Positions 4,798-39,325 of a stretch of DNA of 64,000 nucleotides are shown here, piece by piece; the first letter of the stretch is position 1, and each line of letters opens with the position of its first letter. The DNA is taken from NCBI GenBank assembly GCA_025517425.1, contig JAOPJY010000001.1, positions 1,102,217 through 1,166,216 on the forward strand, given 5' to 3'. The notes beneath the pieces were generated by a model. That model had not been told where the DNA came from and made no database searches. It saw only the letters and a program-made list of their open reading frames with translations. Origin of the DNA: Halobacteria archaeon AArc-dxtr1. GTDB taxonomy: Archaea > Halobacteriota > Halobacteria > Halobacteriales > Natrialbaceae. The position numbers were made by a program, and so were the translations under genes.

Positions 4798-6054
4798 TCC
4801 AGTCGCCCTCGGATCCTGATACCATGTCTACACCAGACACCGGCTCTGAGACCCCTCAGGGCGGTCGAGTTCTTCCAGGGCACGTTAGACTCCACTGACG
4901 AAATCGACGCTGCACGCGTCTTCGATACGACCCTCCGGGACGGCGAGCAGTCGCCCGGCACTTCGTTCTCGTACGACGACAAGCGCCAGATCGCCGCGAT
5001 CCTAGACGAAATGGGGACCCACGTCATCGAGGCCGGCTTCCCCGTCAACTCGGACGCGGAGTTCGAGGCCGTCCGCGACATCGCGTCGTCGACGTCCACG
5101 ACGACCTGTGGTCTGGCCCGCGTCGTCGACGAAGATATCGAGGCGGCGCTGGATTCGGGCGTGGAAATGGTTCACACGTTCGTCAGCACCAGCGACGTCC
5201 AGATCGAAGATTCGATGCACGCCACTCGAGACGAGGTCGTACAGCGCGCAGTCGAGTCGGTCGAGCGTATCACGGAGGCGGGAGCAATCTGTATGTTCTC
5301 GCCGATGGACGCGACGCGAACCGACGAGGCGTTCCTGATGGACGTGATCGAGGCGGTCACGGAGGCAGGAACCGACTGGATCAACATTCCCGACACCACA
5401 GGCGTCGCGACGCCCACGCGGTTCAAGGCCATGATCGAGAAGGTCTGTGCCCACACCGATGCGCGGATCGACGTCCACACCCACGACGACTTCGGACTGG
5501 CCACCGCCAACGCCTTGGCTGGGATCGAAGCCGGTGCGGATCAGGCGCAGGTGTCAGTCAACTCCATCGGCGAGCGAGCGGGCAACGCCGCCTACGAGGA
5601 GTTCGTGATGGCCGTCGAGTCGCTGTATCAGACCGATACGGGGATCGACACGACACGCATCACCGAGCTCTCGAATATCGTCGAGGAGAAAAGCGGGATG
5701 GAGACGCCAGGCAACAAGCCGGTCGTCGGCGAGAACGCCTTCTCCCACGAGAGCGGCATCCACGCCGCCGGCGTCATCGAAAACTCCGATACCTTCGAGC
5801 CCGGCGTCATGACCCCCGAGATGGTCGGCGCCGAGCGCCGGCTGGTCATGGGGAAACACACGGGAACCCACTCCGTGCGTGAGCGCCTGCACGAACTGGG
5901 CTTTGACCCAAGCGAGGAGCAGGTCCGCGCGGTCACGCGCCGGGTCAAAGACTACGGCGCGGAGAAACGTCGGGTCACCGTCGACGACTTAGAGCGCTTC
6001 GCCGAAGAGGCCGACGTCGAGCGCCAGGAGACCCAGGAGGAGGTGCACGTTTAG
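4795..6054 (+). CDS. leuA: 2-isopropylmalate synthase, short form (start uncertain)
   Basis: Condenses acetyl-CoA with 2-oxoisovalerate, the first step of leucine synthesis. Catalytic-domain motifs are clear: [36 protein letters not shown] (metal-binding HxH), SINSIGERAGN-like VSVNSIGERAGNAAYEE and GKHTGTHSVRERL. The protein ends about 45 residues after the catalytic and linker region, so it lacks the C-terminal leucine-binding regulatory domain seen in the paralogue at 39303. Conserved sequence begins EFFQGTLDS near 4867. The in-frame ATGs (4774, 4795) lie before or inside the apparent TATA box at 4790, while the well-placed ATG at 4824 is in another frame that stops at 4898. The start is therefore unresolved; 4795 is a placeholder. 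Confidence 0.9.
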   Translation: MSSRPRILIPCLHQTPALRPLRAVEFFQGTLDSTDEIDAARVFDTTLRDGEQSPGTSFSYDDKRQIAAILDEMGTHVIEAGFPVNSDAEFEAVRDIASSTSTTTCGLARVVDEDIEAALDSGVEMVHTFVSTSDVQIEDSMHATRDEVVQRAVESVERITEAGAICMFSPMDATRTDEAFLMDVIEAVTEAGTDWINIPDTTGVATPTRFKAMIEKVCAHTDARIDVHTHDDFGLATANALAGIEAGADQAQVSVNSIGERAGNAAYEEFVMAVESLYQTDTGIDTTRITELSNIVEEKSGMETPGNKPVVGENAFSHESGIHAAGVIENSDTFEPGVMTPEMVGAERRLVMGKHTGTHSVRERLHELGFDPSEEQVRAVTRRVKDYGAEKRRVTVDDLERFAEEADVERQETQEEVHV

Positions 6055-6113: not shown

Positions 6114-6123
6114 AATTATGTAT
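6114..6123 (+). promoter_or_regulatory. TATA-like promoter of the ilv leader transcript
   Basis: The AT-rich run AATTATGTAT at 6114-6123 is centred about 29 nt upstream of the ATG at 6148. That spacing fits a leaderless transcript beginning at or near that ATG. It lies after leuA, so the ilv-leu genes probably have their own promoter. Confidence 0.5.
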
Positions 6124-6147
6124 CACGAACGAACTACAGAGAGAGTA

Positions 6148-6228
6148 ATGAGGACTCCTGTGCAAGAATCGACCGCTTCGGTCGACAGCAGCACGTCCAT
6201 TTCGCTCGCGATCGTAGGGGCGGCCTAG
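6148..6228 (+). CDS. Putative ilv leader peptide (26 aa)
   Basis: A 26-codon ORF that starts about 29 nt after a TATA-like box and ends TAG at 6228. Its C-terminal part reads SISLAIVGAA, so Ile, Leu, Ile and Val codons cluster just before the stop, and two more Val codons occur earlier. The final codons and the stop lie inside a GC-rich hairpin (6216-6233) followed by a pyrimidine run. It is upstream of ilvB, the first enzyme for Val/Ile/Leu. The layout matches bacterial branched-chain leader peptides. Translation is inferred. Confidence 0.5.
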   Translation: MRTPVQESTASVDSSTSISLAIVGAA

Positions 6229-6245
6229 CCCCTCATACCCCCTCT
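6216..6245 (+). terminator. Hairpin with pyrimidine tract, possible attenuator
   Basis: AGGGGC (6216-6221) pairs perfectly with GCCCCT (6228-6233) over a 6-nt loop and is followed by a C/T-rich stretch ending CTCTTT. The leader-peptide stop codon lies at the loop/right-arm edge. A second CCCC run at 6238-6242 could compete for the same G run, giving an alternative pairing. Function as an attenuator is an inference. Confidence 0.4.
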
Positions 6246-6296
6246 TTGTCCCGTTCGGAACCCGTATCGACCTCACAGCGACCAGCCAGTCAACAC

Positions 6297-6350
6297 ATGA
6301 CCCGACACCACCACTATCGACGCCAGCAGACGGGGGGAGGATCCCAATGA
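6297..6350 (+). CDS. 17-aa mini-ORF coupled to ilvB
   Basis: ATG at 6297 opens a 17-codon frame, MTRHHHYRRQQTGGGSQ, whose TGA overlaps the ilvB ATG as ATGA (6347-6350). The GGAGG of ilvB (6336-6340) lies inside it, 6 nt before the ilvB start. The His/Arg-rich product is unlike the acidic proteome, so any role is probably in translational coupling rather than as a peptide. It may also be chance. Confidence 0.3.
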   Translation: MTRHHHYRRQQTGGGSQ

Positions 6351-8164
6351 GCGAGCGCGCTGCACCGATCTCCTCGTCGAGCGACCCGGACGAACAGCCA
6401 ACAGACCACACAAGCGACGCGGAGGCCGAGACACCGTCGGACGAGGCCGCCGGCATTCCGGAGGACGACCGGACGCCAGTCACGACAGGCGCTGAAGCGG
6501 TCATCCGCGCACTCGAGAACGCGGGCGTCGAGTACGCCTTCGGCGTGCAGGGCGGGGCGATCATGCCCGTCTACGACGCGATCTACGACTCCGAGATCTA
6601 CCACGTGACGATGGCCCACGAGCAGGGGGCCTCGCACGCAGCAGACGCCTACGGAATCGTCGCCGGCGAGCCCGGCATCTGCCTGGCGACTTCGGGCCCG
6701 GGTGCGACCAATCTCGTTACCGGCATCGCGGACGCCGACATGGACTCGGACCCGATGCTGGCGCTGACGGGCCAGGTCCCGACGGAGATGGTGGGCAACG
6801 ACGCCTTCCAGGAGACCGATACGACGGGCGTCACGATGCCGGTCACGAAGAACAATACGTTCGCTGCCGACCCGGACCGCGTCGGCACGGACGTCAGCGA
6901 GGCGTTCGCGCTCGCCCGCGACGGGCGGCCCGGACCGACGCTCGTCGACCTGCCGAAGGACGTTACCCTCTCGGAAACCGACAGCGAACCCGGCGAGCCG
7001 AAAGTCCCCGAGACCGTCGAGGTCCAAGAACGGGCCGATCCGGAGATCGTCGCGGCCGCGGCCGACCGCATCGAGAACTCCCAGAAACCCGCCATGCTGC
7101 TCGGCGGCGGCGTGATCAAAGCCGAAGCCAGCGACGCGTGGCGCGAGTTCGCGATCGAACACGAGATTCCGGTCATCACGACGATGCCCGGGCTGGGCTC
7201 GTTCCCCGAAGACCACGAGCTCTCGATGGAGATGGCCGGCATGCACGGCACCGGCTACGCCAACATGGCCGTCAGCCACTGTGACACGCTGATCGCGGTC
7301 GGAACGCGCTTCGACGACCGCCTGACCGGCGGCATCGAGACGTTCGCGCCCGACGCGGAGGTCATCCACGTCGACATCGATCCGGCAGAAATTTCGAAGA
7401 ACATTCACGCCGATTACCCGCTGATCGGCGACGCCGGCGAGGTCGCAGCCCAGCTTTCCGACGCGGTCACGGAGTCCCCGACGGCCACGAAGTGGCGCGC
7501 CCAGTGCCAGCAGTGGAAATCGGACTACTCGATGGCCTACGAGACGCCCGACGACGAGCCCCTGAAACCGGAGTTCGTCGTCGAGGCCTTGGACGAGGCG
7601 ACGAGCGATCGCGCGATCGTCACCACAGGCGTCGGCCAACACCAGATGTGGGCCTGCCAGTACTGGACCTACACCGAACCTCGGACGTGGGTTTCGAGCC
7701 ACGGGCTGGGGACGATGGGGTATGGCTACCCGGCCGCCGTCGGCGCCCGGCTAGCCGCCGACGACGACCAGGAAGTGATCTGCATCGAGGGCGACGGCTC
7801 GTTCCTGATGACACTCCAGGAACTGGCGGTCGCTGTCCGAGAGAACCTGGATATCACCTGCGTCGTCCTCAACAATCAGTACGTCGGGATGGTTCGCCAG
7901 TGGCAGGACGCCTTCTTCGAGGGGCGACACTCCGCCTCGGAGTACAACTGGTGTCCCGAGTTCGACAAGCTGGCCGAGGCGTTCGGCGCCAAGGGCTTCC
8001 GGATCGACGACTACGACGAGGTCGCCGACACGATCCAGGAGGCACTCGCCTACGACGGGCCGTCGGTGATCGACGCCCACATCGATCCGCAGGCGAACGT
8101 CTACCCGATGGTGCCAAGCGGCGGCGACAACAACCAGTTCGCCCTCTCGGAGGATCAACTATGA
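6347..8164 (+). CDS. ilvB: Acetolactate synthase large subunit
   Basis: TPP-dependent condensation of pyruvate with pyruvate or 2-oxobutyrate, the common step of valine/leucine and isoleucine synthesis. After an acidic, probably disordered 45-residue N-terminus come the pyrimidine-binding domain with the catalytic Glu in AHEQGASHAADAY (about residue 91), the central FAD-type domain, and the pyrophosphate domain with GDGSF (about 481) followed by NNQYVGMV, the TPP motif. At 605 residues it is slightly longer than usual because of the N-terminal extension. The start is supported by GGAGG at 6336. It heads ilvB-ilvN-ilvC-leuC-leuD and is probably controlled by the upstream leader region. Confidence 0.96.
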   Translation: MSERAAPISSSSDPDEQPTDHTSDAEAETPSDEAAGIPEDDRTPVTTGAEAVIRALENAGVEYAFGVQGGAIMPVYDAIYDSEIYHVTMAHEQGASHAADAYGIVAGEPGICLATSGPGATNLVTGIADADMDSDPMLALTGQVPTEMVGNDAFQETDTTGVTMPVTKNNTFAADPDRVGTDVSEAFALARDGRPGPTLVDLPKDVTLSETDSEPGEPKVPETVEVQERADPEIVAAAADRIENSQKPAMLLGGGVIKAEASDAWREFAIEHEIPVITTMPGLGSFPEDHELSMEMAGMHGTGYANMAVSHCDTLIAVGTRFDDRLTGGIETFAPDAEVIHVDIDPAEISKNIHADYPLIGDAGEVAAQLSDAVTESPTATKWRAQCQQWKSDYSMAYETPDDEPLKPEFVVEALDEATSDRAIVTTGVGQHQMWACQYWTYTEPRTWVSSHGLGTMGYGYPAAVGARLAADDDQEVICIEGDGSFLMTLQELAVAVRENLDITCVVLNNQYVGMVRQWQDAFFEGRHSASEYNWCPEFDKLAEAFGAKGFRIDDYDEVADTIQEALAYDGPSVIDAHIDPQANVYPMVPSGGDNNQFALSEDQL

Positions 8165-39235: not shown

Positions 39236-39325
39236 ATGGCACGAGATACACTCTCAACGCCGTACGCCGAGGATAGAGGAAGTCGGGGCGACCCGGCTGG
39301 GCGTGAAATTCCGCGACGACACTGA
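39236..39325 (+). CDS. 29-codon upstream ORF before the LeuA-family gene
   Basis: ATG at 39236 lies about 30 nt after a TTTAAG box (39199-39206), the spacing of a leaderless start. It encodes 29 residues beginning MARDTLSTPYAEDRG and stops at 39325, overlapping the GTG used for the downstream synthase in another frame. It may regulate translation of that gene or be fortuitous. Confidence 0.3.
   Translation: MARDTLSTPYAEDRGSRGDPAGREIPRRH

Follow-up and report, generated by a model that had tools for sequence, protein, structure and literature searches.

Leader-peptide attenuation is a textbook bacterial mechanism that needs tight coupling of transcription and translation, and Archaea carry a eukaryote-like polymerase and termination factors. 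In the E. coli pyrBI and ampC leaders the ribosome directly blocks the terminator hairpin, and in E. coli pheST a Phe-rich leader peptide precedes the phenylalanyl-tRNA synthetase gene. The systems closest to the locus described here are the bacterial ilv attenuators, i.e., those of E. coli ilvGMEDA and ilvBN and of Corynebacterium glutamicum ilvBNC (PMC11857589), in which a short ORF with Ile and Val codons is located directly before the operon and finishes at a GC-rich hairpin with a pyrimidine tract behind it.

We have found these shared elements upstream of ilvB in the haloarchaeon AArc-dxtr1, within a stretch of 64,000 nucleotides of its genome (the window from here on). The differences from the bacterial ilv attenuators are the archaeal host, a short ORF (ORF1) that is probably near-leaderless instead of starting at a ribosome-binding site, a single hairpin with the stop codon in it, where the bacterial leaders have a terminator and an antiterminator hairpin in competition, the low number of control codons, a second upstream ORF (ORF2) apparently coupled to ilvB and a different termination machinery. 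Like in pyrBI and ampC, a ribosome on the hairpin, and not an alternative fold, would prevent termination, but here the signal would come from ribosomes that stall on cognate codons, like in trp and ilv, whereas theirs is the speed of coupling or general translation.

The leader upstream of ilvB

The gene leuA ends at position 6054 of the window and the ATG of ilvB is located at 6347. Downstream of the leader the operon order is ilvB, then ilvN, ilvC, leuC and leuD. The features are the following:

6116..6120, + strand, TATA-like box TTATG, the proposed promoter of the leader (32 nt from the ATG, as in 66/78 relatives)
6148..6228, + strand, leader ORF1, MRTPVQESTASVDSSTSISLAIVGAA*, 26 codons plus TAG (frame kept in 78/78, with 13 lengths)
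6199..6216, + strand, control-codon stretch ATT TCG CTC GCG ATC GTA (Ile, Leu, Ile, Val)
6211-6213 (Ile) and 6214-6216 (Val, GTA), + strand, the conserved control codons (Ile in 77/78, GTA in 78/78)
6216..6233, + strand, hairpin AGGGGC/GCCCCT, containing the stop codon of ORF1 (from pairing probability and paired changes in relatives)
6233..6247, + strand, G-poor, C/U-rich tract, the proposed termination zone (from the G content over 78 loci)
6297..6350, + strand, ORF2, MTRHHHYRRQQTGGGSQ*, with its TGA overlapping the ilvB start as ATGA (from the frame of upstream ATGs)
6347..8164, + strand, ilvB, acetolactate synthase large subunit, the first gene proposed to be controlled

A sequence-only reading of this stretch had described a TATA-like box, a 26-codon ORF and a perfect 6-bp hairpin overlapping its end and followed by a C/T run. 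The box and the ORF were confirmed, with TTATG 32 nt before the ATG at 6148, and the hairpin and the run are present base for base, the stop codon TAG (6226-6228) being located inside the perfect 6-bp hairpin. The 3' end of ORF1 reads ATT TCG CTC GCG ATC GTA GGG GCG GCC TAG, and TCATACCCCCTCTTTG follows the hairpin. The transcript that carries ORF1 is probably near-leaderless.

Conservation of ORF1 and of its control codons

We have compared the window with 80 named haloarchaeal ilvB loci. All 81 have a short ORF that runs in frame into the hairpin, an arrangement that is therefore not due to chance, and the short ORF of the sequence-only reading is thus conserved among relatives. Numbers over 78 loci refer to those in which a TATA-like box could be recognised at a suitable distance from the ATG, this distance being 32 nt in 66 of them. 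The first ATG with this spacing was in frame with the Ile-Val codons in 78/78, and the distance from ATG to GTA took 13 different values, always whole codons. No stop interrupts the leader frame between both points in any of the 78 loci, and the same is true of the +2 frame, while in the +1 frame 60 of the loci have stops. The identity of the ORF1 stop varies (TAG, TAA or TGA) and it is found inside the hairpin, usually in its loop, in 69/78. It is located 3-4 codons past the GTA in 69 loci and 8 codons past in the other 9, and the loci without a loop stop tend to have one extra G-C pair there. These data, i.e., a short upstream ORF with its frame, start and stop kept, point to a predicted translation of ORF1, as in an attenuator.

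The body of the leader is poorly conserved, variable in length and rich in A, R, S and T, and its dN/dS (0.68) indicates a weak coding constraint on the residues. This is what would be expected if the frame and the end of the ORF matter more than the peptide. The leader peptides do not constitute folded domains. ORF1 typically ends in Ile-Val-Gly, Val-Gly being nearly invariant in the leaders of both ilvB and valS (see below).

Ile, Leu and Val had all been proposed as control residues. Ile and Val stand, with the last Ile (position -1) in 77/78 loci and the Val codon GTA (position 0) in 78/78, and so the codons kept among relatives are those of these two; Leu is not conserved. The share of Ile was 36% of the residues at positions -4 to 0 versus 0.9% in the leader body, and swaps between ATT and ATC occur among loci. 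In the ilvB genes themselves GTA makes up 0.4% of the Val codons and ATT 6% of the Ile codons, and such rare Ile and Val codons suit a sensing site. The invariant GTA and the frequent T before the ATT could reflect a requirement of the RNA rather than codon sensing. As predicted for an attenuator, the putative control codons match the amino acids of the pathway (Ile and Val for ilvB).

Hairpin and downstream tract

The predicted pairing probability of the hairpin was 0.97 in the window leader, with a mean of 0.96 over the 78 leaders. The typical ilvB hairpin is GGGGC/GCCCC, and most of its columns are invariant in ilvB and provide no evidence on structure, so that the structural evidence comes from paired changes. 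The fourth pair changes from G-C to C-G in some valS leaders and the fifth from C-G to U-A, indicating that the hairpin, like the ORF, is conserved among relatives. In two genomes (L267 and L269) a hairpin of another sequence (GGGCC/GGCCC) appears at the same place, over a peptide that ends IRVRAAPAH*. The 5' arm starts within a few nt of the conserved Ile and Val codons, a placement in which the position of a ribosome would affect the hairpin.

Over the 78 loci G makes up 6-7% of the 16 nt behind the hairpin, and mostly at least 17% further on. The tract is C-rich with few long T runs, unlike a textbook terminator. We noticed no conserved antiterminator fold at ilvB, where the hairpin dominates the predicted folding. 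The alternative pairing with a second CCCC run put forward in the sequence-only reading is not supported, the run (6239-6243) being found in a minority of loci only, as judged by eye.

The second upstream ORF

Of the 84 ATGs located between the hairpin and ilvB, 79 share the frame of ORF2, which closes with a TGA overlapping the start of ilvB (ATGA). Taking only the first ATG of each locus, 68 of the 69 loci with an ATG in this interval have it in the ORF2 frame. It must be considered that the ATGA of ilvB supplies the TGA by itself, so only the frame of the upstream ATG is informative in these counts. The same arrangement was found at valS in 53/63, mostly with a conserved end, ..RRRPxRAVRA*. 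This pattern suggests that ilvB and valS are translated by coupling to ORF2. ORF2 is located about 60 nt beyond the region of the hairpin and the tract, and no conserved pairing with ORF1 was noticed.

Distribution among Halobacteria

A covariance model (R1) built from the alignment of ilvB leaders (A1) matched 378 of the 394 Halobacteria genomes, from 82 of 86 genera, although a few of the matches could be valS leaders. Among the 16 genomes without a match, 7 carry a diverged ilvB leader, two of a single genus (g64; L276 and L281) have ilvB without a visible leader, a natural loss, and in four (L282-L285) ilvB is close behind another gene and the leader is absent. The remaining misses were two genomes without a true ilvB and one with a cut contig. 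In about 243 other genomes of the phylum sample, outside the Halobacteria, there was one weak match (G515), on a different contig than its ilvB.

An orphan leader was also found (L129), ending LIVGV* over a perfect hairpin of the GGGGT..ACCCC type, with neither ilvB nor valS within 1.5 kb downstream. Across the 11 genomes scanned for it, the strict hairpin GGGGCNNNNTAGCCCC appeared at ilvB, at valS and in one unrelated match (L207). As a leader finder, the generic pattern GTAGGGGN{4,10}CCCC was rejected, as it gave mostly noise with control counts similar or higher.

Leaders at aminoacyl-tRNA synthetase genes

In many genomes R1 gave a second match upstream of valS (valyl-tRNA synthetase), corresponding to homologous leaders. 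These end VFVGA, VRVGA or VVVGA with Val always present, and Ile was found among the last ten residues of 1/32 valS leaders versus 78/78 ilvB leaders. The valS model (R2) matched 60/195 genomes. The majority belong to the same family as AArc-dxtr1, and a few of the matches are ilvB leaders. In the window's own genome the valS locus (L188, C2 near 260463) has lost ORF1 and the hairpin and has kept the downstream leader sequence and ORF2, i.e., it is a natural partial deletion.

A transcription-start map of Haloferax volcanii revealed uORFs within the long 5' UTRs of pheS and trpS that were left uninterpreted (PMC4983044), and for this reason the pheS and trpS loci were examined here. The sizes given were 26 aa before pheS (HVO_2948) and 23 aa before trpS (HVO_A0127) (PMC4983044, Table 2). 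The Phe and Trp leaders described below are at the same genes and have the same sizes, but there they were presented as small proteins, with no attenuation, and ilvB and valS are not in the table.

The pheS and trpS2 leaders were found by F or W patterns and their codon content is thus partly circular, which applies to the 24 of 30 pheS loci with a match, nearly all ending GFGFFFAR or alike, as well as to the second type of trpS (trpS2), where short ORFs encoding W-R-W or as many as four Trp were detected in essentially all 20 loci. Their position, the promoter box, the covarying stems and the match to the published uORF sizes are not circular. One of the pheS matches (L301), on the opposite strand, looks spurious. 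The pheS leader of the window's own genome (L298) ends GLGFFTAR. At pheS a covarying helix can form between the Phe codons and the beginning of the ORF, and the Trp ORF is mostly inside a covarying stem, GTCCGCTC/GAGCGGAC. Both leaders are folded differently from those of ilvB and valS. The trpS2 leader was clear also in 2/3 plasmid records. In Haloferax mediterranei it is MVSTSHANCWRWHAFREVDSIAV, with 23 aa and 2703 Da, and the H. volcanii table gives 23 aa and 2743 Da. Like the E. coli pheST leader, the haloarchaeal GFGFFFAR leader is Phe-rich, but the sequences and folds are unrelated and belong to different domains of life.

Two other conserved elements were observed at these genes. Downstream of the Phe leader (loci L298-L322) there is a hairpin, CGGTGGA .. 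GGCGAAACCG, whose internal loop is conserved and which hardly varies across genera, and between the Trp leader and the gene (L327-L346, L357 and L358) a conserved tract similar to GCTCACTCGCTTTCTC.

A leader of this kind was not found in the upstream regions of ileS and leuS, both of which look near-leaderless themselves, and at trpC there was no Trp leader with a promoter-like box. Over the four genes a cognate-codon rule emerges from the predicted leaders, Ile and Val at ilvB, Val at valS, Phe at pheS and Trp at trpS2. The reading of the stretch as an ilv attenuator gains support, at the level of sequence, from its relatives and from the cognate-codon leaders at valS, pheS and trpS2, and the negative controls ileS, leuS and trpC also speak in its favour.

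Proposed mechanism and alternatives

We consider it likely that this archaeal stretch serves the ilvBNC(-leu) operon as a ribosome-mediated attenuator. In the comparisons above it has the short ORF, the control codons and the hairpin placement of a bacterial leader-peptide attenuator, and it would work like one. Codon sensing is strongly supported by the conservation described. The start of transcription, the termination in the tract, the dependence on starvation, the sign of the response and the factor involved are inferred.

In this mechanism the near-leaderless transcript would open with ORF1. With an ample supply of charged Ile- and Val-tRNA, the ribosome would complete ORF1 and depart, the GGGGC/GCCCC hairpin would form behind the RNA polymerase, and transcription would stop in the C/U-rich tract, probably aided by the archaeal termination factor FttA (aCPSF1). 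If either Ile- or Val-tRNA becomes scarce, the ribosome would stall on the rare Ile and Val codons a few nt 5' of the hairpin arm, and its footprint would hold the hairpin open (and may exclude FttA), so that the polymerase reads through. ORF2, by its ATGA overlap, would then couple translation into ilvB. With a typical ribosome footprint and the distances observed, a ribosome stalled with the last Ile or Val codon in its A site would cover the 5' arm, and no alternative fold would be needed. Transcription in Haloferax volcanii terminates at T stretches and, with a value of 59% in the single case tested, at a hairpin (PMC7237163). The ribosome and FttA have been hypothesised to be mutually exclusive competitors on the elongation complex (PMC11616081).

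The same stalling sensor could have a translational or mRNA-stability output, in which what changes is the access of ribosomes to ORF2, and then to ilvB, with no termination. This we judge unlikely, even if the ATGA overlap of ORF2 is conserved at both ilvB and valS and the tract is not a clear T-run terminator, given that a G-poor C/U tract is conserved directly behind the hairpin and that ORF2 lies about 60 nt further on with no conserved ORF1 pairing noticed. As for nascent-peptide arrest, where an IVGA(x) C-terminus would stall the ribosome, maybe helped by a small cofactor molecule (a free amino acid, for instance), we consider it very improbable. The near invariance of Val-Gly in the ilvB and valS leaders would fit, but these residues are dictated by the GTAGGG of the hairpin region, the residues at the end of the pheS and trpS2 leaders are quite unlike them, and in L267 and L269 VRAAPAH replaces VGA over a rebuilt hairpin, which argues against it. 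C-terminal residues conserved independently of the RNA structure, as in TnaC- or SecM-like arrest peptides, were not found in these leaders.

There are also two readings in which the ribosome would not be the sensor. The conserved sequence might be a site where a regulatory protein binds the DNA or the RNA, the ORF being incidental. Both TATTGTAGGGGC and the hairpin are strongly conserved at the nucleotide level, which would agree with this. The frame and start are kept, however, despite swaps of stop (TAG/TAA/TGA) and Ile (ATT/ATC) codons, some relatives have unrelated hairpin sequences, and the cognate-codon rule extends over four genes, leaving such a site extremely improbable. Neither do we give practically any credit to ORF1 being a small functional protein acting in trans. 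Nearly all genomes of the class keep this ORF, but what is conserved are the codons at the hairpin and not the variable A/R/S/T-rich body.

Returning to the ribosome-mediated attenuator, salt-loving archaea probably sense the shortage of amino acids through stalled ribosomes, as indicated by the tiny ORFs with matching codons that overlap RNA hairpins. A wider proposal, to which we attach a moderate likelihood, is that four or more genes would each be controlled through cognate codons by a set of haloarchaeal attenuators with near-leaderless ORFs and archaeal termination, the second uORF handing ribosomes on at ilvB and valS. If true, this would be the first documented attenuation of the trp/ilv type outside bacteria. 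The near-universal ilvB leader and the three synthetase leaders make archaeal attenuation directly testable in Haloferax volcanii. The leader would moreover serve as a natural reporter for transcription-translation coupling and for the ribosome-FttA competition (hypothesised in PMC11616081).

Relation to described haloarchaeal leaders

In the open-access literature, which was the scope of our search, we found no archaeal leader-peptide attenuator, the papers that came up being bacterial or unrelated. HVO_1508 we take to be the tag of the Haloferax ilvB. The literature on Haloferax ilvB (HVO_1508) and valS and a 2025 Ribo-seq paper contained nothing on attenuation. With Rfam 15, there were no matches at the gathering score to the window leader or to 11 leader loci of ilvB, valS, pheS and trpS2, T-box and leuA-Halobacteria included.

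The leuA-Halobacteria RNA (Rfam RF03001) has a match elsewhere in the window, at 39262-39314. It is likewise haloarchaeal and located before a gene of leucine-pathway type, but differs in sequence and structure and has no match at 6114-6245. This match sits wholly inside a 29-codon ORF (39236-39325), upstream of a second leuA-like gene, and the ORF starts about 35 nt past a TTTAA box. RF03001 itself may be, or overlap, a translated leader.
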